DNA of 64,000 nt from Bdellovibrio bacteriovorus W (GTDB taxonomy: Bacteria; Bdellovibrionota; Bdellovibrionia; Bdellovibrionales; Bdellovibrionaceae). The stretch spans positions 124,001 to 188,000 of the forward strand of contig CP002190.1 of assembly GCA_000525675.1 (NCBI GenBank), read 5' to 3'. Below the pieces are notes generated by a model that worked only from the letters and a program-made list of their open reading frames with translations, did not search any database and was not told the DNA's origin. Positions 3,579 through 60,120 of the stretch are shown in pieces (positions within the stretch are counted from its first letter, which is position 1; the number at the start of each line of letters is the position of its first letter). The translations under genes and the position numbers were made by a program.

Positions 3579-4961
3579 CTACTGAATATTTCGTGACCAC
3601 TTCGGTTTGAAATAATTGAAGTTGTCGTTTGTTACACGACGCTCTTCGGTTCCATCAACTGTAGAGATGTAGATCTGATTTTTTCCTGTGCGATTGCTTG
3701 TGTACATCACGAAGCGACCATCTGGTGAAAAACTTGGATCTTCGTTACTCGCCATTTTGCCGTTAGGCTTCTTTGCCGAAGTCAGGCGTATCATACCAGT
3801 GCCATCTGCATTCATGACGAAGATATCGAAGTTATTATCACTCTGCCCTGAGAATGCGATCTTCTTACCATCTGGAGACCATGACGGCGAAGAGTTGAAA
3901 ACACCTGCAAAGGTAATGCGTTTAACATTAGAGCCATCATTATCGGCAGTGTAAATCATCGGGCGGCCAGCACGATCTGAAGAGAAAGCAAGAAGACCGT
4001 TGTTGGCAGCCGCGGGTTCTACGTTGAGTGCTCCAGCGGGACCATTTGTGATCTTGCCAGCAAGCTCTCCCTCAAGTGTCATCTTGTAAATATCAGGGGC
4101 GCTGCCTTGAGAAATTGTTAAGTAGATATGTCTCCCGTCTGGAGAAAACGCTGCGCCAGAGTTAATTCCTTGGCGATAGGAAACCAAAGAGCGTTTTCCA
4201 GAGTTGAGATCATAAAGCAACATATCCGCGTTTCTAAATTTAGCGCCTACGCGTTTGACGTAAGAAGTGTAAGCTACTTTTGTTCCATCAGGAGACCACG
4301 CCGGAGAAATTGAAATACTCTTATGGTTAGAGATTTGATTTATGTTAGCGCCATCCCAGTCCATAGTAAAAATTTCTTTGGTCTGAGCTCCAGAGCGATC
4401 GCTGGAGACGACGATGCGAGATAAGAAAGGACCTTCTTCGCCCGTCAGGGACTTTAAGATGTCGTTTGCAAAAGTATGGGCAATTTTACGCGCACTGGAA
4501 ACGGGGCCTTTATATTTTTTTCCTAAAACTAGTTGAGCGCGTGGAACGTGGTAGGTGTAAGTCTCTAGAGTCATTTCATTGCCAACAATAGAGTAACCAG
4601 CACGTACTAAAAACTCCGTACCAATTGCTGACCAACTTTGAAATTTAAAGCCATTGGCTTGTCCTGGGGCTGGCATTAATCCCGTTTTGCTAGGATCTTC
4701 TAAGAAGGCTTTTTGATCAATGAGCTGAAAGTAAGCAGAAACCGTGAGGTCATTGACGAGGGTGTTAAAAAGTTCAACTCCTACAGATTGATACTTTGCA
4801 GTTGTGGTTGGGGAACCAAAATACTGCAGAGGCGGAACAGCAAGTAGGCTCTTCTTCGTGCGAGCTTCGCCCATTTTGATATAAATTCCACCTTCTTGAG
4901 CGTAGGATGCAGAAGCAAAACTAAAAATCAAAAGAAGACATACTAATGCATTCTTCAACAT
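3579..4961 (-). CDS. tolB: Tol-Pal system periplasmic beta-propeller TolB
   Basis: A 460-residue protein with a cleavable signal peptide (ASA-SYAQ region near residue 20). An N-terminal TolB domain (about 30-170) is followed by WD40-like TolB repeats, recognisable by recurring [24 protein letters not shown] and DPSFSPDG motifs. TolB links Pal and the outer membrane to the TolQRA inner-membrane motor during cell division and maintains envelope integrity. It is the last gene of the operon tolQ-tolR-tolA-like-tolB, 15 nt after the tolA-like gene with a CTAGGAGG-type RBS. No pal gene follows, unlike the enterobacterial order. Confidence 0.95.
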
Positions 4962-13319: not shown

Positions 13320-13876
13320 GTAACACAGATGTTCTAATTAGAATTCAAGCGACTCCAAACCCTAATGCTTGGAAATTCATTCTTGATAGGCCTGTCCTAG
13401 TTGAGGGTAAAGCCACTTACCACAGCCCACAAGAAGCCGATCAGAGCATTTTGGCGTATTCCTTGTTTCATGTGATTGGTGTTCGCCAAGTGCATTTCTT
13501 TCAGAACGTTATTACGATTACGCATAACTTTGATGAAGACCCTGAAGAAGTTCAAAAGGGTGTTTGTTCAGTTATTCAAACTCGCATGGCTGCTCATAAT
13601 CCGAATCAGACGATGAAAGATGAAAAGATGAAGCGTCGTGAGTCTTTATCTCCAGAGTTGCAACAGATCGAAGAGATTCTAGATCATACAGTAAGACCTG
13701 GTTTGCAAGGCGACGGTGGGGACGTGGAGATTGTAAAGTTTGAAGAGAACAAACTTTATGTTCTTTACCAAGGAGCTTGTGGCACTTGTCCAAGCGCTAC
13801 CACAGGAACTTTAATGGCGATCGAGGGCATTCTTCGCGATCAATTTAATCCGAGCATCGAAGTTATTCCGATGTAG
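13316..13876 (+). CDS. Nfu-type Fe-S carrier (Nfu_N plus NifU C-terminal domain)
   Basis: A 186-residue protein with an N-terminal Nfu_N domain (about residues 6-90, beginning IQATPNPNAWKF) and a C-terminal NifU-like domain (about 112-186) with the cluster-binding CGTC motif in QGACGTCPSATTG. Such proteins receive clusters from the SUF scaffold and deliver them to targets. It overlaps sufS by 4 nt (ATGA) and is the last gene of the operon. Its 3' end overlaps the 3' end of the convergent gene by 14 bp. Confidence 0.93.
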   Translation: MSNTDVLIRIQATPNPNAWKFILDRPVLVEGKATYHSPQEADQSILAYSLFHVIGVRQVHFFQNVITITHNFDEDPEEVQKGVCSVIQTRMAAHNPNQTMKDEKMKRRESLSPELQQIEEILDHTVRPGLQGDGGDVEIVKFEENKLYVLYQGACGTCPSATTGTLMAIEGILRDQFNPSIEVIPM

Positions 13877-14411
13877 TTTCAGAGGGCTCTTTAGAGCCCT
13901 TTTCTTTTTGGGACTCAAACTCTTCGACTTGTTGGCGAATTCTAGGTGCGACATGCTCTAGAGTGTCTTCGGGGCGGCTGACAACAATGTCAGAGGCTGT
14001 AAAGCCACCGGCCGTTACTTTTAAGATAATATTTTTTTGTGATTCTTTATTAAATCCTCGGACTTTCACTTTAAGAGAAAGTTCTTCTTGGCCTTGAGCA
14101 AGCAGAGATCCGCTTTTGCTGCCACTGCTGATTGTAACTTCAGAAGGAAGTTCCCATTCATATTTTAGCTCAGAAGCGTTTCTGCGATTTAAAATCTTGG
14201 CGTCAATCGTAACCTCACTGTCACCGCTTTCTGGAATATCAGAGGGTTCAGTAAGAGAGACAGCAACGGGCTGAGAGGGTTTTCCACGATGGGCCGGAGA
14301 GATGCGTTCAAAGGCGAGCTTTTCATTCTTAGGCTTTGACGGGCTCATCGAAAGGGCAAATGGAGAGGCGAGAATAAGAATGCAAATAAATGCTAAAGGG
14401 CGCGTGGACAT
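13863..14411 (-). CDS. Secreted protein of unknown function
   Basis: A 182-residue protein with a signal peptide (hydrophobic residues 6-21, cut probably near ALS-MSP). The mature part looks like a single beta-rich Ig-like domain (SEVTIDAKILNRRNASELKYEW, given here only in part: VTIDAKILNR and LKYEWELP), followed by a charged tail rich in Glu, Lys and Ser. I recognise no family. Its start lies inside the 3' end of the upstream lipoprotein gene (19-nt overlap), so the two are co-translated and may act together at the cell surface. Confidence 0.75.
   Translation of the reverse strand: MSTRPLAFICILILASPFALSMSPSKPKNEKLAFERISPAHRGKPSQPVAVSLTEPSDIPESGDSEVTIDAKILNRRNASELKYEWELPSEVTISSGSKSGSLLAQGQEELSLKVKVRGFNKESQKNIILKVTAGGFTASDIVVSRPEDTLEHVAPRIRQQVEEFESQKEKGSKEPSETTSE
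13884..13909 (+). terminator. Terminator of the suf operon, inside the convergent gene
   Basis: GGGCTCT (13884-13890) pairs with AGAGCCC (13893-13899) and is followed by TTTTCTTTTT. It lies in the last codons of the minus-strand gene, so these bases are both terminator and coding sequence. Confidence 0.75.
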
Positions 14412-16330
14412 AAGTTAACTCCATTACCGAGGCGAAGTTGATAAGTGGTTTGATGCGGAAGATTGCCAAGATTCAGCGCTTTGACCTTCACGTTCACGAC
14501 AAGATATTCCTCGTTGTAAGAGCGTGTGTCTAAGTACTCAGAACTTGACGTAGAGCGAGAGGCCCCTAAGAGTGTGCTATTCTTTTCAGACCATTTAGAG
14601 TCTTCAATATAGCGATAGTTTTTTCTATAAATCATAAGATCTAAATTTAGATTGGGTCCACTAGGGTTTGGCAGAATGTCGAAGCCAATTCGAGAATCAC
14701 CCAATGAAGATTTTTTTACCAAATAGAAATGGTTGTTCGTCAACTGGTTAGAGGTTGGAAATGAAGCGTTTTCAGGAGCTGCCCCATCAAAAAGCTGTGG
14801 GCAGGATGTGTTGCCCGCCTCCGCTAAGAAAGGCATGTAGTGCAAGTTTGTCAGTGGTTGATTCTCACTTTCAAGAATTTCTAACGCTTGCGGGCTCAAG
14901 GTCATGTTGCTCGCCAAAATATTCGTGAAGATTCCCGCATTCGAAATAGGCGCGACCACTGAGTTTTTAAGATTAGTCGGAAATTCACCGCTATTTGGTA
15001 GACCTATACCCGTGAGGCTTTTCCAGATTTCAAAAAACGGAACGCCTCCTCCGTGGGTTGCGTCGTGGGTGACTCCAGTGGGTGTATCGCACTGGCCATT
15101 GGCTCCATACACCTTTTGGGGAGTAATCATGGATACAGAGTTAGCACGAGTTAATTTATAAAGAGTCCTCGAGATTGAAAGCTCTCTGAAGATACCCGAG
15201 TGTGCATACTTATCTGAATAGGCATAGTCGGGGACAGTGCAATCATAGCCATGGGCAATAAGGTCAAAAGAGAAGGTTCTTCCTGCAGCGGTATCCAAAT
15301 AGAAGCCATCGGTATTTAAATCAAAACCATCATTTCCCGTTTGAACCGCACCTTGGAAGTAGTTAGCAAGTCCCTCACTCCAAGCAAGGCGTGGGTCGAT
15401 GATCGCATCCCCATCGTGATAGCCGCCCATGGAGGACGAGTTGCTATAAGTGTCTTCAAGAAAGTGCATATACTCATGCAAGATCACGGAATCATCAAAG
15501 TGATCAGTATCTACACTCGAAGTGTTGCCTCGACTGCCCCCAAGAATAAAAGCCATTCGTGAGTTGGGATCTGTAGAAGGGATGTAGAAAGAAGAGGCGC
15601 CTGGCTCATTGGTAAAATAAGTATAAGGATTGAACCCGGCCTTCCAGTAAATTTTTAACTTGGGAGCCACTATCCAGTTTGCATTCGTAATGACAGTCGG
15701 GGCGACTCCATTGCCGTTATTTCTCTGTAGCTCTTTGCGAATAAACTCATTTGCGTGAAAAACATTGTAATAGATATTAAAAGCTCCACCACGAATTTCT
15801 GGATCATCCGTAGAGTGAGCATGGGCCACAAGAGCCAGAGTGCTTGGCGTGCTGACGCCTTCATTCAGAGTAAAGTTCTGTGAGATATAATAAGGCGTAT
15901 TCGTATTAATTTGATCTAAGACGCTGACATTTAAATAGCTATTAGCTGCGCGCGAGAAAACTCTGACTTGATAGCTTCCATTGATGTCGGGAATTTCAAA
16001 ACTAAACGTCCCATCTCTTTTTGTTTCACCTTGTTGGATACGCTGAGTACCTGCGTAGATGTGAAATTCTGCAAAGGGAATGGGTGAGATCACGGCGCCT
16101 GCACTGAGGCCAGTCGACTGAGAAGGGACGCGCGCTTTGAACTCAGCTTTTCCAGTCAAGATGCGAGTCGGAACTTCGCTAGGAAAAGTAGTTGGTTTAC
16201 CCGCATAGACGGGTTCGTTTTGCGGTGGCGCCGTTGAGCCGAAGTCCATTTCACCAAAGTTACCAATACAACCTGTAAGGAAGAGCAGTGAAGAAAATAG
16301 GAGTTGGATCAGAGACTGATAAAATCGCAT
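14393..16330 (-). CDS. Gluzincin-like zinc metalloprotease lipoprotein
   Basis: A 645-residue protein with lipobox LTGC (Cys21). Residues about 75-140 look like a carboxypeptidase-regulatory-like beta domain (FHIYAGTQRIQQGETKRDGTF). The zinc site is VILHEYMHFLED (HExxH at 285-289) with a downstream Glu at about 319 in AWSEGLANYF, a typical gluzincin arrangement. So a surface-exposed or periplasmic metallopeptidase is likely. No RBS is obvious before the ATG; TCCGATAA lies 6 nt upstream, one base from the sigma-28 -10 consensus. It is co-transcribed with the small secreted protein. Catalytic motif clear, substrate unknown. Confidence 0.8.
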   Translation of the reverse strand: MRFYQSLIQLLFSSLLFLTGCIGNFGEMDFGSTAPPQNEPVYAGKPTTFPSEVPTRILTGKAEFKARVPSQSTGLSAGAVISPIPFAEFHIYAGTQRIQQGETKRDGTFSFEIPDINGSYQVRVFSRAANSYLNVSVLDQINTNTPYYISQNFTLNEGVSTPSTLALVAHAHSTDDPEIRGGAFNIYYNVFHANEFIRKELQRNNGNGVAPTVITNANWIVAPKLKIYWKAGFNPYTYFTNEPGASSFYIPSTDPNSRMAFILGGSRGNTSSVDTDHFDDSVILHEYMHFLEDTYSNSSSMGGYHDGDAIIDPRLAWSEGLANYFQGAVQTGNDGFDLNTDGFYLDTAAGRTFSFDLIAHGYDCTVPDYAYSDKYAHSGIFRELSISRTLYKLTRANSVSMITPQKVYGANGQCDTPTGVTHDATHGGGVPFFEIWKSLTGIGLPNSGEFPTNLKNSVVAPISNAGIFTNILASNMTLSPQALEILESENQPLTNLHYMPFLAEAGNTSCPQLFDGAAPENASFPTSNQLTNNHFYLVKKSSLGDSRIGFDILPNPSGPNLNLDLMIYRKNYRYIEDSKWSEKNSTLLGASRSTSSSEYLDTRSYNEEYLVVNVKVKALNLGNLPHQTTYQLRLGNGVNLCPRAL

Positions 16331-53964: not shown

Positions 53965-55008
53965 TTGACTGAAAATAGCCGAAATACTTTTTTTGCAGTT
54001 CTAATCATTGCTTCGATGGCGTTCTCTTCATCCGTATCCCTTGCGCAGCCTAATACTGGCGAGTCCTTCACCATCTATATCGAAAATGACACCCGTCGTA
54101 TTGGCGGGCCAGGGTCAGACGATAACTACTCCAATGGACTGCGTCTGTCTTATGTCTATGCTGAAGATCAGGTTCCTAATTGGGTGCCGACTCTGACGGA
54201 TTGGTCAGAAGATCTGCGCCGTGAGTTTCGTAAATCCAGCAATACAAATTTTGGGATTTCCCTCGGGCATCAGATTTTTACGCCGAAAGATACCCAAACT
54301 GAAACTTTGATTACAGATGATCGTCCCTATGCTGGGTGGCTTTATTTTGGATTCATGGCTAGCTATCAGACAGTTTCTCATAGTCATTCCTTAGAATTGG
54401 ATTTAGGAGTGGTGGGGCCTGCAGCGATGGGAGAACAGGTTCAGAATAATTTCCATTCATTGATTGATGTGGAAAAAGCTAAAGGCTGGAACAATCAGTT
54501 GGACAATGAGCCGACAGTGCAGGTTTCTTATCAACAAAGACTTCGTTTTATTAAAGCAGAATTTCATGACAGCAGAGTCGCTGATTTGATTCCCTATTTT
54601 GGAGGAGCGGTTGGTAACGTTTTAATCGGTGCCCATGTGGGAGCTTTGTTGAGGGTCGGATTTAATATTCCCGATGACTTTGGTCCCACGCGCCCGTCTT
54701 CCACCGATGGTGATCCTGCCTTTATTCCACGCCCTGATATCAATGCACAGAAGTGGGGAGGTTATCTTTACGGGGGCTTGAGGGGAAATTTGGTAGCGCA
54801 TAATATTTTTCTAGATGGCAGTATTTTTCAACACAGCCACCATGTTACGAAATATCCCATGAATGTCGAGACCGAGTTTGGTGTAGGCGGGCGCTATGGT
54901 GGATGGAGTGTTGTTTGGCGATATGTCACTAAATCGCCAGAGTTTGAAGAGCGCAGTATTTTTAACAGCTTTGCTTCGATCAGTATCTCTTATGCAAGAA
55001 GCCTTTAA
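53965..55008 (+). CDS. LpxR-family (DUF2219) lipid A deacylase-like outer-membrane protein
   Basis: A 347-residue protein with a signal peptide (cut near SLAQ, residue 28). The mature start FTIYIENDTRR carries the N-D pair of the LpxR active site, and the family sequences DDNYSNGLRLSY, ISLGHQIFTP and DDRPYAGWLYFGF follow. The rest is a 12-stranded beta barrel. LpxR removes a 3'-acyloxyacyl group from lipid A. TTG is the only start that leaves a full signal peptide, with GGGAGA upstream. Probably modifies its own or its prey's lipid A. Confidence 0.88.
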   Translation: MTENSRNTFFAVLIIASMAFSSSVSLAQPNTGESFTIYIENDTRRIGGPGSDDNYSNGLRLSYVYAEDQVPNWVPTLTDWSEDLRREFRKSSNTNFGISLGHQIFTPKDTQTETLITDDRPYAGWLYFGFMASYQTVSHSHSLELDLGVVGPAAMGEQVQNNFHSLIDVEKAKGWNNQLDNEPTVQVSYQQRLRFIKAEFHDSRVADLIPYFGGAVGNVLIGAHVGALLRVGFNIPDDFGPTRPSSTDGDPAFIPRPDINAQKWGGYLYGGLRGNLVAHNIFLDGSIFQHSHHVTKYPMNVETEFGVGGRYGGWSVVWRYVTKSPEFEERSIFNSFASISISYARSL

Positions 55009-55634: not shown

Positions 55635-58600
55635 TTAGAGTGTTCCTGCTGCAGATTCGTAAACGGTCATTTCGCCTGGGTAGACAATTCTTCCATTGCC
55701 TACATACGTCGAATCGACTCGGAGTGACAGGAAGTAAACATTGCCAGGCTTGAACCGTAAATAAATATTTCCATCGGATCCAATGTATTGAGTTGGGTTG
55801 AAGTGGCCTTGTGGGTCACGGCTCTGAGGAGCTGTAATTATACTAGGAGTTAGAGCGTAAGAGTATCCAACGAATGTGAGGTCTATATCTTTGGCATCTC
55901 CGTAGGCGTATCCTTCGACTTTGAAGTGATACATATTGGTATGAACTGAGGGTTTAAATGGAGTTCTGATATGGATATAGAGCGCAGAACTGGATGTTTG
56001 AGTAAAAAAGCTAACGACATTGATGGTTTTGGCTCCAATTCCACTTCCAATAACAGTGCCGCCGCTAACCTCTAGTTTAGCTCTAGGATTGTCAGTTCCA
56101 ATTCCAATGTTCCCATTCTGGCTGATATTCATGCGGGATACAGCGACCTTACTGCCATCTGGTGTCGTGTTAAAAACTAAATTGCTCCCATTGGCAGACT
56201 CTGTCCAGTTCTCTGTAGCTTGGGAGATTATGCCAGTTTGAGCACCTGTGGAGGGTGCAAAGGAACTTCCATTATAGCCTGCAAAGATAAACTGTCCCAA
56301 GAAGTCGTTCTTTTGAAGGGCTACTGGAGCCGCTTCTGTGCCGCGTGCGGCGCGGGCAACAAACGGAGCTCCCCATAAATCGCTAGAGTTATAGTAGGTG
56401 GCGTGAATCCCCCTTCCTGCTGCGGATTGAGCGACAACTTCAAGCTGAGCGATTGGTTTTTGAGTTCCAACCCCCACGTTGCCGCCAGAGGAGTTTAAAA
56501 CAATATTTCCTGCTGTCATGTTGGATGTTCCAGCCAGCGTCAAAGTATTTTCAGCGGCAGTGCCGCCATAAAGAGTTTGTCCGCCGGAGCGACCCGCAAG
56601 AAGGGCATACTGCTTAAAAAGATCACCAGAAATTGCTGAGAACCCAGGGGTGCCTGAAGCGTTGGTGGTTAAAACTGAATTGTTCGCAGTTGTAAGACCT
56701 CCGATAACATTGTTAGCCGAGGAATAAAGCAGCTGGTTCGCCGTGGTTGTTGATGGGTAACTGGCTGTGCTGAAAGTGGGACCAGTAACACTATTGTGTT
56801 GTAAAACAGAGCCATGGACCACGCTAGAGACTGAAGTGAGTGCTGTGCCACCTGGATTTGAGGTGATAACGCTAGATGCTCCAAAGCTGCTGGCATTGGT
56901 GCCGCCGTTAGCGATTGGCAGTACACCACTCACATCCGAAGTCAGTGTGACGGCGTTTCCGCCGGAGAGGGCACCCGCAGCGGTATTCTTCACAATTCCC
57001 GCTGTTGTAAAATTAGAAAGAGTCAAACCTGAAAACGTTGGAGTCGCCGCCGTATGAATATTCTGCGGAGTCGCAAGGGTCACAGAACCCGCCGCATTGG
57101 TCACAGTGACTTGATTGGCAGTGCCGTTTAAAGCTTTGTATTCATAGCCTGTGGCACCTGCATTCATGCCTAAAATTCTATTAGCTGCTCCAAGTCCTGT
57201 CAGTCCAGCAAGAGAAATTGTCGGCGTTGCTCCACCTGTTGAACTCAATGGTAAGGTGGTGCCGACCGATGTAACAGTTCCATTTGTTAAAGTCTGCCAA
57301 GATAAATTACCAGCACCATCATTAATCAATGCTTGAGTTCCAGTGCTTTGTGCAGCAGGCAACCTCAAAACATAATTTGTGGCAATCGCACCTGACGGGC
57401 CTTGGACAGTCACAGAGTTCCCATTAGTTCCTGCAGTGTAAGCGCTGCCAGTGTTTGCAGAAAATTTGAGATTACCAGTCATAGAGTCGCCAGCTTTGAG
57501 CACATTGAGTGAAGCGGCACCCGTTAAACTTGCAGTAATATTTCCTGCACTGAAATTACCTGAAGCATCACGCTTAACGATTGTGGAGGCAGTGTTCACA
57601 TTTGTTGCAGCATTTGCAGCCACTTCAGCAGTATGTACATCCGCTGCTGTTGAGCCACCGACAGATTTCACAGTTGCAGGAACCGAACCAGAACCTGACG
57701 CTGTGACATCGCCAGTTAGAGCGGTGATGGTGCCGCCAGCACCCGCGGCTGAAGCAATAACTGCCCAAGCACCGGAGTTATATTGGTAAATCTTTTGAGT
57801 ATCCGCTGCGAAATACAGATCGCCCATTAGAGGAGAGGCTGGTTTACTAGAGTCAGCACCAGAGCTGATCGTTGTAACACCTCCACCATTTTTAACGACC
57901 GAGTCAGTAATACCATAACCACTCAAAGTAGTAGGTTTATTAGTTGTGATCTTAGACCAATCCAAATTAGGAATATCAGAAGCAACTAAAGATGCGGAAC
58001 CAGAAGTGACACGGCCTTTAGAATCCGTCGTCACTTTATAATAAGTGCCCGGAGTTCCAGTCGCAGCTAGTGTTAGAGTTGTAGAACCTGCAGCCGATGT
58101 TACATCGCCAGTAAATGCTGGCAGTGCAGAAGCTGGTAAAGTTCCATTCAGATCACTCGCTTGCAGAGTTGAATTTACAAACGCTGAACCATTGTGGCGA
58201 ATATAGTCACCAGAAGTTGGTGTCGTAAGGGTTAATGTAGATCCTTGAAGTTTAGCAATTGTTGCAGGCGCAGAGCCTGGACCACTTGCAATCACATCGC
58301 CAGCTAAGGCGGTCACATAGTTCCCAGCAGCTTGTTTGTTATTAAATGTCGTCCAATCAGCAGAAGATAAATAGCCACCAGTAGAAGAAGTCGCTTGAGA
58401 AATGGAAACAACTGGATTTGAAGTTCCAGAAGCAACACTAATGGGTGAAGTGCCAGAAACAGAAGTCACGGTTCCCGGATTTCCTGCAGGCAGAGTCGCA
58501 GGAGCCCACTTTGTACCATTCCACTGCAAAACTTGATCGGAGGTTGGTGCTATTGGATCAATAGGTTGATTCTGTAAAGCCACGACTTTCGCGGAACCAA

Positions 58601-59810
58601 TAGATCCAGTGACATCTCCCGCCAAGCCCACATTGATTGCTTGGCATTGGAAATTCCCCGAAACAGAATTCCAATATATAGTTTGTGAAGGTGAACATCC
58701 CGCAGAGGAAATATAGCCGTTAAACGCAGACTGAGTAATGTAATTAGAGAGTGTCGAAGAGAAATTAGAAATATCACCTGTGGTTAAAGTATTCGCAGAC
58801 CAATTTGTACCATTATACTTTAGAATTTGTCCTGAATTTGGCGCAATGGAACTTACACTAACACCTTGAAGAGCGGCCACCGTAGGACTTGGATAGTTCC
58901 CTGCCAGATCTCCGCTAGCAGCGCCACCTGGTGCGACTCCCGCTATCGCAATATTACCGGCTGCGGTTAAACGACCTTGAGCATCGACAGTGAACGTGGG
59001 TACCTGAGCAGCAGAGCCATAAGATCCTGCGATAACAGATGTATTTTCAAGACTGATAGTTCCACTTGTTGTAATCGGGCCGCCTGTTAAACCTGCACCT
59101 GTCGAGATGTTGACGACAGATCCTGAACCAGCAGCCAAACAAGTCATCGCGGAACCATTCCAAGACAGGTAAGTTCCAGTACTGCACGTAGGAAGACCGG
59201 CTTTTATTAAGAAATCTGTCGCGACGTTCGTTCCGAGTTTTTCCGCAGAAAAAGCATAGCCCGCAAATGGAACAGAACGAATGATGTTATCAGGAGTAAT
59301 TGTTTGCCACGATTTACCATCGTAAAAAGAAACCCGTAATTTTCTCAGGTCACCAGAAGAAGCTTGATAGGTGCTTGTGCTGTTTGAGCAAGAATAGGAG
59401 TCGCTCAAGGTGCAAGTGCCACAATTAAAAAGAGCGCTGTTATTGAATGCATTGAGTATGCTTGAGCTACCTAAGGGATATTGAATGGCCCCCAGGCCAA
59501 TGGGTACGTCAAAGACTCCGCCGGAATTGACCATGTTAATCCCGGTGACCTGCTCTTGATAGATAAGACATTGACCAAGAGGATCCATGATCTGAAATAG
59601 AAAAGAAACGGCATTATATTCCAGAGGCTTGCCACTGGTATTCAAGATTCTACCCTGATAAGTAAGAGAAATGGGGGAGGCTGGCGCTACTTCAGAAAAA
59701 AGAAAGAACAATAGTGTAAAGGCGATCATGGCAATGAGTCGATGTTTCAAATTAAACAAGGTTATATCTTTGCGATCGTCTTTTATAAGAAATCTTCCAG
59801 CACGTACCAT
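55635..59810 (-). CDS. Giant secreted fibre / adhesin (mosaic adhesive trimer-like)
   Basis: A 1391-residue protein. A hydrophobic signal sequence near residues 25-45 is followed by a conserved N-terminal domain (SLTYQGRILNTSGKPLEYN). Then come at least five related modules beginning GDV or GDL (GDVTGSIGSAKVVALQ, GDVIASGPGSAPATIAKLQG, GDVTASGSGSVPATVK), with the recurring QVLQWNGTKWAPATL motif; long Ser/Thr/Gly/Asn stretches; NVGVGTQKPIAQLEV and NIGIGTDNPRAKLEVSG motifs; and a unique C-terminal beta domain of about 115 residues. This is the layout of phage-tail-fibre-like Bdellovibrio MAT proteins that bind prey through the C-terminal tip. ATG at 59810 with AAGGA; a TTG at 59867 is less likely. 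Confidence 0.8.
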   Translation of the reverse strand: MVRAGRFLIKDDRKDITLFNLKHRLIAMIAFTLLFFLFSEVAPASPISLTYQGRILNTSGKPLEYNAVSFLFQIMDPLGQCLIYQEQVTGINMVNSGGVFDVPIGLGAIQYPLGSSSILNAFNNSALFNCGTCTLSDSYSCSNSTSTYQASSGDLRKLRVSFYDGKSWQTITPDNIIRSVPFAGYAFSAEKLGTNVATDFLIKAGLPTCSTGTYLSWNGSAMTCLAAGSGSVVNISTGAGLTGGPITTSGTISLENTSVIAGSYGSAAQVPTFTVDAQGRLTAAGNIAIAGVAPGGAASGDLAGNYPSPTVAALQGVSVSSIAPNSGQILKYNGTNWSANTLTTGDISNFSSTLSNYITQSAFNGYISSAGCSPSQTIYWNSVSGNFQCQAINVGLAGDVTGSIGSAKVVALQNQPIDPIAPTSDQVLQWNGTKWAPATLPAGNPGTVTSVSGTSPISVASGTSNPVVSISQATSSTGGYLSSADWTTFNNKQAAGNYVTALAGDVIASGPGSAPATIAKLQGSTLTLTTPTSGDYIRHNGSAFVNSTLQASDLNGTLPASALPAFTGDVTSAAGSTTLTLAATGTPGTYYKVTTDSKGRVTSGSASLVASDIPNLDWSKITTNKPTTLSGYGITDSVVKNGGGVTTISSGADSSKPASPLMGDLYFAADTQKIYQYNSGAWAVIASAAGAGGTITALTGDVTASGSGSVPATVKSVGGSTAADVHTAEVAANAATNVNTASTIVKRDASGNFSAGNITASLTGAASLNVLKAGDSMTGNLKFSANTGSAYTAGTNGNSVTVQGPSGAIATNYVLRLPAAQSTGTQALINDGAGNLSWQTLTNGTVTSVGTTLPLSSTGGATPTISLAGLTGLGAANRILGMNAGATGYEYKALNGTANQVTVTNAAGSVTLATPQNIHTAATPTFSGLTLSNFTTAGIVKNTAAGALSGGNAVTLTSDVSGVLPIANGGTNASSFGASSVITSNPGGTALTSVSSVVHGSVLQHNSVTGPTFSTASYPSTTTANQLLYSSANNVIGGLTTANNSVLTTNASGTPGFSAISGDLFKQYALLAGRSGGQTLYGGTAAENTLTLAGTSNMTAGNIVLNSSGGNVGVGTQKPIAQLEVVAQSAAGRGIHATYYNSSDLWGAPFVARAARGTEAAPVALQKNDFLGQFIFAGYNGSSFAPSTGAQTGIISQATENWTESANGSNLVFNTTPDGSKVAVSRMNISQNGNIGIGTDNPRAKLEVSGGTVIGSGIGAKTINVVSFFTQTSSSALYIHIRTPFKPSVHTNMYHFKVEGYAYGDAKDIDLTFVGYSYALTPSIITAPQSRDPQGHFNPTQYIGSDGNIYLRFKPGNVYFLSLRVDSTYVGNGRIVYPGEMTVYESAAGTL

Positions 59811-60090: not shown

Positions 60091-60120
60091 AAAGAGAGGG
60101 AGCTAAAGTCCCTCTCTTTT
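60091..60120. terminator. Bidirectional terminator
   Basis: AAAGAGAGGGA (60091-60101), loop GCTAAAG, TCCCTCTCTTT (60109-60119). It now ends the oxidoreductase gene on the minus strand and may once have ended the lost SnoaL copy. Confidence 0.85.

Follow-up and report, generated by a model that had tools for sequence, protein, structure and literature searches.

A MAT-type fibre of Bdellovibrio bacteriovorus W whose tip is related to Bacteriovoracaceae fibres and phage fibre-region proteins

The fibre gene and its surroundings

The window analysed here is a stretch of 64,000 nucleotides from Bdellovibrio bacteriovorus W (contig CP002190.1, positions 124,001 to 188,000) and forms part of a complete 3.0-Mb chromosome. 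It contains a gene for a MAT-type fibre, an open frame of 1391 codons that runs from 59810 to 55635 on the minus strand; on the plus strand the frame is closed over the same interval, and that reading was ruled out. A preliminary description of the sequence had placed a 1391-residue fibre at 55635-59810, beginning with a signal sequence and a conserved N-terminal domain, and all three were found. The ATG start is preceded by a plausible ribosome-binding site (GAAGGA); an internal ATG (residue 28) could serve instead. Because upstream nmrA ends before a hairpin at 60091-60119 (located by consensus scan only) that precedes the fibre gene, this gene is probably transcribed on its own.

The signal peptide region covers residues 1-44 (59679-59810, minus strand, as are all parts of the fibre given below), with a hydrophobic stretch at residues 28-38 and a probable cleavage site after A44, where APA is followed by S; homologues carry signal peptides at the equivalent place. 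The conserved N-terminal MAT domain follows at about residues 46-195 (59226-59675). Seven copies of this domain were detected in the window's own genome, 18 in congener G006, with identities of up to 59% to that of the fibre, and 30 in congener G005. The repertoire thus differs widely in size among members of the genus and is comparatively small in the species studied here; for HD100, 21 MAT members have been counted with a more sensitive search (PMC10769870).

The shaft contains three modules of the GDx...NG type, at residues ~300-337 (ending in QILKYNGTNW), 398-436 (QVLQWNGTKW) and 504-544 (degenerate), the first two lying within 58503-58913, and further GDV repeats at residues 566 and 700. 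The repeated GDV/GDL modules noted earlier are therefore real, although the exact string QVLQWNGTKW occurs only once. Residues 552-655 (57846-58157) match the phage tail-fibre family phrog_7389 (E = 1.3e-18). NVGIGT-type motifs, also noted earlier, occur twice and correspond to capping loops: loop 1 at residues 1111-1125 (NVGVGTQKPIAQLEV; 56436-56480) and loop 2 at residues 1234-1248 (NIGIGTDNPRAKLEV; 56067-56111). Between them lies a distal beta-helix module (residues 1126-1233, 56112-56435), and beyond loop 2 the protein ends in a tip module (residues 1254-1391, 55635-56051) with the predicted fold of a phage-type beta-sandwich.

The neighbouring genes encode primase and RpoD, an LpxR-type outer-membrane protein, and NmrA, LysR and PilZ proteins. 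No phage structural genes were found among the tested neighbours, and the fibre gene lies outside any prophage. The match of the shaft to phrog_7389 and the homology of the tip to phage proteins, described below, might suggest that the fibre is the tail fibre of a prophage remnant and not a cellular adhesin. We consider this very improbable: besides the absence of phage neighbours, the protein has two parts for which a phage fibre has no need, a signal peptide and the MAT N-domain, and its family occurs in all 24 genomes of the genus that were searched (the window's own and 23 others).

The LpxR-type gene (53965-55008, plus strand) belongs to a lipid A deacylase family (Pfam PF09982, E 5e-95) and has relatives in 14 of the 23 other genus genomes; in the congeners checked it lies at other sites, and none of these relatives adjoins a closely related MAT where this was checked. 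The nmrA-lysR pair is kept in G006 with no MAT beside it, and a synteny comparison found no orthologous locus with a different tip in the congeners checked.

Membership in the MAT family

The mosaic adhesive trimers (MATs) of B. bacteriovorus are a fibre family with a known part in prey recognition. All 21 HD100 members of the MAT family share a signal peptide and a conserved beta-rich N-domain of ~130 amino acids (PMC10769870), and the fibre has both. The published capping-loop consensus, V-G-G/N-x-x-x-P-x-x-x-L (PMC10769870), is represented by two copies, with V or I at the third residue where the consensus has G or N. The distal beta-helix resembles those of solved fibres by sequence: residues 1141-1252 match the structure 8OML of Bd1334 (E = 2.2e-12) and residues 1150-1280 match 8OL4 of Bd2439 (E 1.4e-9), these two being its closest solved relatives, and the Bd1334 structure 8ON4 is matched as well. 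A variable tip on a common shaft is likewise present, since the same shaft bears a C1q tip in congener G005. With homologues in every genus genome searched and an E-value of 2e-12 between the distal shaft and solved MAT structures, the architecture is beyond chance.

The S74 chaperone-protease (signature SDxxxK) was not detected in the fibre, either as a Pfam match at E<=1 or as a signature in the last 420 residues. As its C-terminus lacks an S74 domain, the fibre is assigned, on its sequence features, to the NS74 subgroup of the MAT family by the published definition (PMC10769870). Every testable sequence feature (N-domain, capping loops, distal beta-helix, variable non-S74 tip) bears out the family membership proposed in the preliminary description. 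With the NS74 MATs of HD100 (Bd1334, Bd2439, Bd2133, Bd2734 and Bd2740; PMC10769870) the fibre shares the signal peptide, the N-domain, the capping-loop motif, the distal beta-helix and a variable tip without S74. It differs from them in that its tip has no sequence match to the published MAT tip structures and belongs to a family common to phages and Bacteriovoracaceae. The fibre is thus an additional member of a known family, and what is newly added here is the kinship of its tip and a rule for the junctions of its modules.

A long, repetitive, secreted fibre could also be a type Vc protein, a trimeric autotransporter adhesin whose C-terminal barrel serves as its own anchor. Pfam finds no YadA-type anchor in the protein, and a C-terminus formed by a phage-type beta-sandwich contradicts such an arrangement; we regard this explanation as hardly credible.

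The tip, its predicted fold and its relatives

A unique C-terminal domain of ~115 residues had been described, from about residue 1275. A C-terminal domain is present, but it starts earlier, at about residue 1254 (core 1264-1391), and it is not unique. Within the genus, the tip is private to the window's genome: a sequence search found it in 0 of the 23 other genus genomes, and a profile built from 31 relatives gave no match in G006 and, over the 23 genomes, only one weak match, to an unrelated short frame. Weak profile matches in G221, G115 and G008 were not used, as they were partial and fell either within long fibres or within a short, unrelated frame.

The nearest relatives are found in the Bacteriovoracaceae, which belong to another family-level lineage (f12) of the phylum. 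The tip of a fibre in assembly G151 is 77% identical (107 of 139 aligned positions), and two further assemblies have identities of 73-74%. The G151 fibre is whole, with 1111 residues; it has a signal peptide, and its MAT-like N-domain is related to that of the window's fibre. Together these Bacteriovoracaceae MAT-like fibres (G151, G146, G152; DFXY01000061, JANJTC010000003) share with it a 74-77% identical tip and a matching last capping loop, whereas the shaft is nearly unrelated, with mostly 10-30% identity in a global alignment. Relatives of the tip also end secreted proteins in one assembly each of Polyangiaceae, Desulfobacterales and Flavobacteriaceae, each time after a VGxGTxxP motif.

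Two further observations concern tip-like sequences in related assemblies. A Bacteriovorax assembly (L265, G074:C27, ~4106-4370) contains a tip piece of ~75 residues, with frame changes, immediately following a few N-domain residues (SLSYSGRL), apparently a fibre pseudogene with an internal deletion or else a join made in assembly. In family f12, L266 (G124:C26) and L267 (G126:C26) encode secreted proteins of ~225 residues with a distant version of the tip and without a fibre shaft.

A large set of homologues comes from contractile-tail phages, phage-plasmids and prophages of Pseudomonas, Vibrio, Pseudoalteromonas and Shewanella, where the domain forms part of ~200-residue proteins. Where the annotation was read, including P2-like phages, these are encoded between tail protein I and either a fibre assembly chaperone or the tail sheath. 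The P2-like fibre-region proteins, for example those of Vibrio phage 10N.286.54.E5_PE002 (XLL20675) and of the Pseudomonas aeruginosa phage-plasmid pPHPALO418 (WCV99357), whose genes adjoin those for tail protein I and the fibre assembly chaperone, are homologous over the whole C-terminal domain, with 32-37% identity and E-values down to 7e-18. Proteins of this type match phrog_8748 and phrog_10758 only in their first ~50 residues. They differ from the fibre in having ~200 residues, a short N-terminal segment and no signal peptide, while the tip studied here ends a secreted protein of 1391 residues. In viral contigs, detection of homologues needed an alignment-based search; with the tip as a single sequence, such a search gave nothing. 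Nine columns are invariant among 31 aligned tips: H1280, P1284, M1293, G1300, Y1301, G1315, Y1318, G1335 and Y1342.

No Pfam or PHROGs family was matched by the tip. A sequence search of the PDB gave only repetitive 'Cake' proteins over ~22 residues, which were judged chance matches. An AlphaFold2 model of the tip as a single chain is confident, with nine strands, a predicted local distance difference test (pLDDT) score of 91 and a predicted template modelling (pTM) score of 0.87. The best match in a set of predicted viral structures spans the domain with a TM score of 0.80. Foldseek found no solved structure that reached E 0.001. When solved chains were re-aligned, phage tail proteins ranked at the top, with T4 gp9 the best (Z 8.0, 3.3 A, 107 residues). 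The C-terminal domains of T4 gp9 and of tailspikes and fibres (1QEX, 6C72 and 7XY1; Z 8.0, 7.0 and 6.1) have a beta-sandwich arrangement similar to that predicted for the tip; at 8% sequence identity, the likeness is suggestive only and may reflect no more than a common arrangement. No published MAT tip (Bd2133 or others) appeared in the fold search, an absence that proves nothing. The comparison with phage fibre tips and known MAT tips suggested in the preliminary description revealed homology to the former, at the level of fibre-region proteins, and no sequence match to the published structures of the latter.

Exchange at capping loops and the role of the tip

Comparison with other fibres places both capping loops at points where similarity changes abruptly. 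The fibre of G005 shares a shaft that is 68% identical over residues 14-1125; identity is about 80% before loop 1 and about 20% after it, the drop falling inside the loop, and the G005 protein then ends in its C1q domain. Loop 2 is a corresponding point for two other groups. Fibres of congeners G017 and G014 keep ~40% similarity through the distal helix up to loop 2 and none beyond it; both bear the S74 signature, which in G014 stands directly after the loop. Conversely, the Bacteriovoracaceae fibres of G151 and G146, so dissimilar in the shaft, rise in identity at loop 2 and are 60-88% identical to the window's fibre from about residue 1250 on.

The same pattern was examined over 62 fibres. 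Pairs were taken as similar if they had >=60% identity over the 40 residues before a loop, and similarity was taken as lost at <=30% after it; the loop itself was skipped, because the conserved motif raises identity, and offset positions served as controls. Of 320 comparisons that were similar before a loop, which are not independent of one another, 220 lost their similarity after it, as against 2-36% at the control offsets. The control values were higher at -120 and +120, in keeping with the distance from one loop to the next. As judged from these alignments, capping loops mark the exchange points of distal modules.

Other tip types were seen among MAT-like fibres of the genus. In one congener (L186, G016:C5:190000-208000, 13493-16306) the tip is a sulfatase-modifying-factor (FGE) domain (Pfam PF03781, E 4e-8). 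A C-terminal motif, VSWISGF or GSWITGF, recurs in several of the genus's MAT-like proteins (L203, L250, L014), of which two are encoded in the window's genome; this suggests another widespread tip type.

The tip has apparently passed as a ready-made block between distantly related predatory lineages. Between the window's genome and the Bacteriovoracaceae, the tip is 74-77% identical, RpoD 56% and DnaG 27%; within the genus, RpoD identity is 92%. At the DNA level the tips are only 65-68% identical, so the transfer is not recent. In a tree, the window's tip groups with those of Bacteriovoracaceae (91/99), while the phage tips stand apart; the tree therefore does not support a phage as immediate donor, and the sequences support a common pool of tips in which phages would hold another branch. 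Alternatively, the tip could be ancestral to fibres of the Bdellovibrionota, evolving very slowly and passed on by vertical descent, with loss from almost every relative. The grouping in the tree is compatible with this, as is the presence of both tips on MAT-like fibres with related N-domains. Such a history is nevertheless improbable, as the tip would have had to change more slowly than RpoD and DnaG while the rest of the protein is mostly only ~10-40% identical, and every one of the 23 sampled congeners would have had to lose it.

Our preferred explanation, which we hold with considerable confidence, is that of a surface-displayed MAT fibre that gained its prey-binding tip as a cassette, with the last capping loop as the junction. 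The fibre would be secreted and displayed on the surface, presumably retained on the predator by the conserved N-domain as its base; the phage-fibre-like modules of the shaft and the distal beta-helix would hold the C-terminus outward, and by analogy with solved relatives the whole would form a trimer. The 138-residue beta-sandwich tip may then bind a prey surface structure, most likely a glycan, at touch or entry. Its cassette, starting at the last capping loop, would have come from a pool common to Bacteriovoracaceae fibres and, more distantly, to fibre-region proteins of phages of Gram-negative bacteria. Sequence comparison establishes the architecture, the family to which the fibre belongs, the homology of its tip, the junctions of exchange and the pattern of transfer; prey recognition by the tip is probable. 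There is good indirect support for the earlier proposal that specificity resides in the tip, as this is the exchanged part and is homologous to phage fibre-region proteins.

Several points weigh against this explanation or parts of it. Single MAT deletions in HD100 had mostly little effect (PMC10769870), and the individual importance of the fibre may therefore be small. Receptor binding by the homologous phage proteins is deduced from their position beside fibre and chaperone genes, the match of the tip to solved structures is of a strength that a common fold arrangement might also account for, and the tree, whose internal support is weak, gives neither the direction nor the route of transfer.

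A different role in place of first prey recognition, either at a later stage (anchoring inside the bdelloplast, porthole resealing, vesicle placement) or in self-adhesion or biofilm formation, appears less likely but deserves consideration. In HD100, several MAT fibres move to the vesicle or the bdelloplast (PMC10769870), and relatives of the tip also form the ends of secreted proteins in Desulfobacterales and Flavobacteriaceae, lineages that are not known to be predatory. On the other hand, every C-terminally tagged MAT tested in HD100 was located on the attack-phase cell surface (PMC10769870), and the phage relatives of the tip are encoded in the fibre region.

For the family as a whole, we regard it as evenly balanced whether prey-recognition tips form a pool that moves between distant predatory lineages as cassettes bounded by capping loops and is common by descent with Gram-negative phages. 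Bd2439, the only Bdellovibrio adhesin reported to bind specific prey glycans, is a MAT fibre (PMC10769870); as the tip studied here is shared with phage fibre-region proteins, its ligand may be guessed from the receptors of phages that bear the domain. The rule of cutting at the capping loop would allow the start of the tip to be read in many unannotated fibres of the group. That a distant predatory lineage has so similar a tip speaks for predator-predator exchange of prey-recognition parts, and if the common cassette pool is real, the prey range of these predators would evolve like the host range of phages, by modular exchange of fibre parts at a definable junction.

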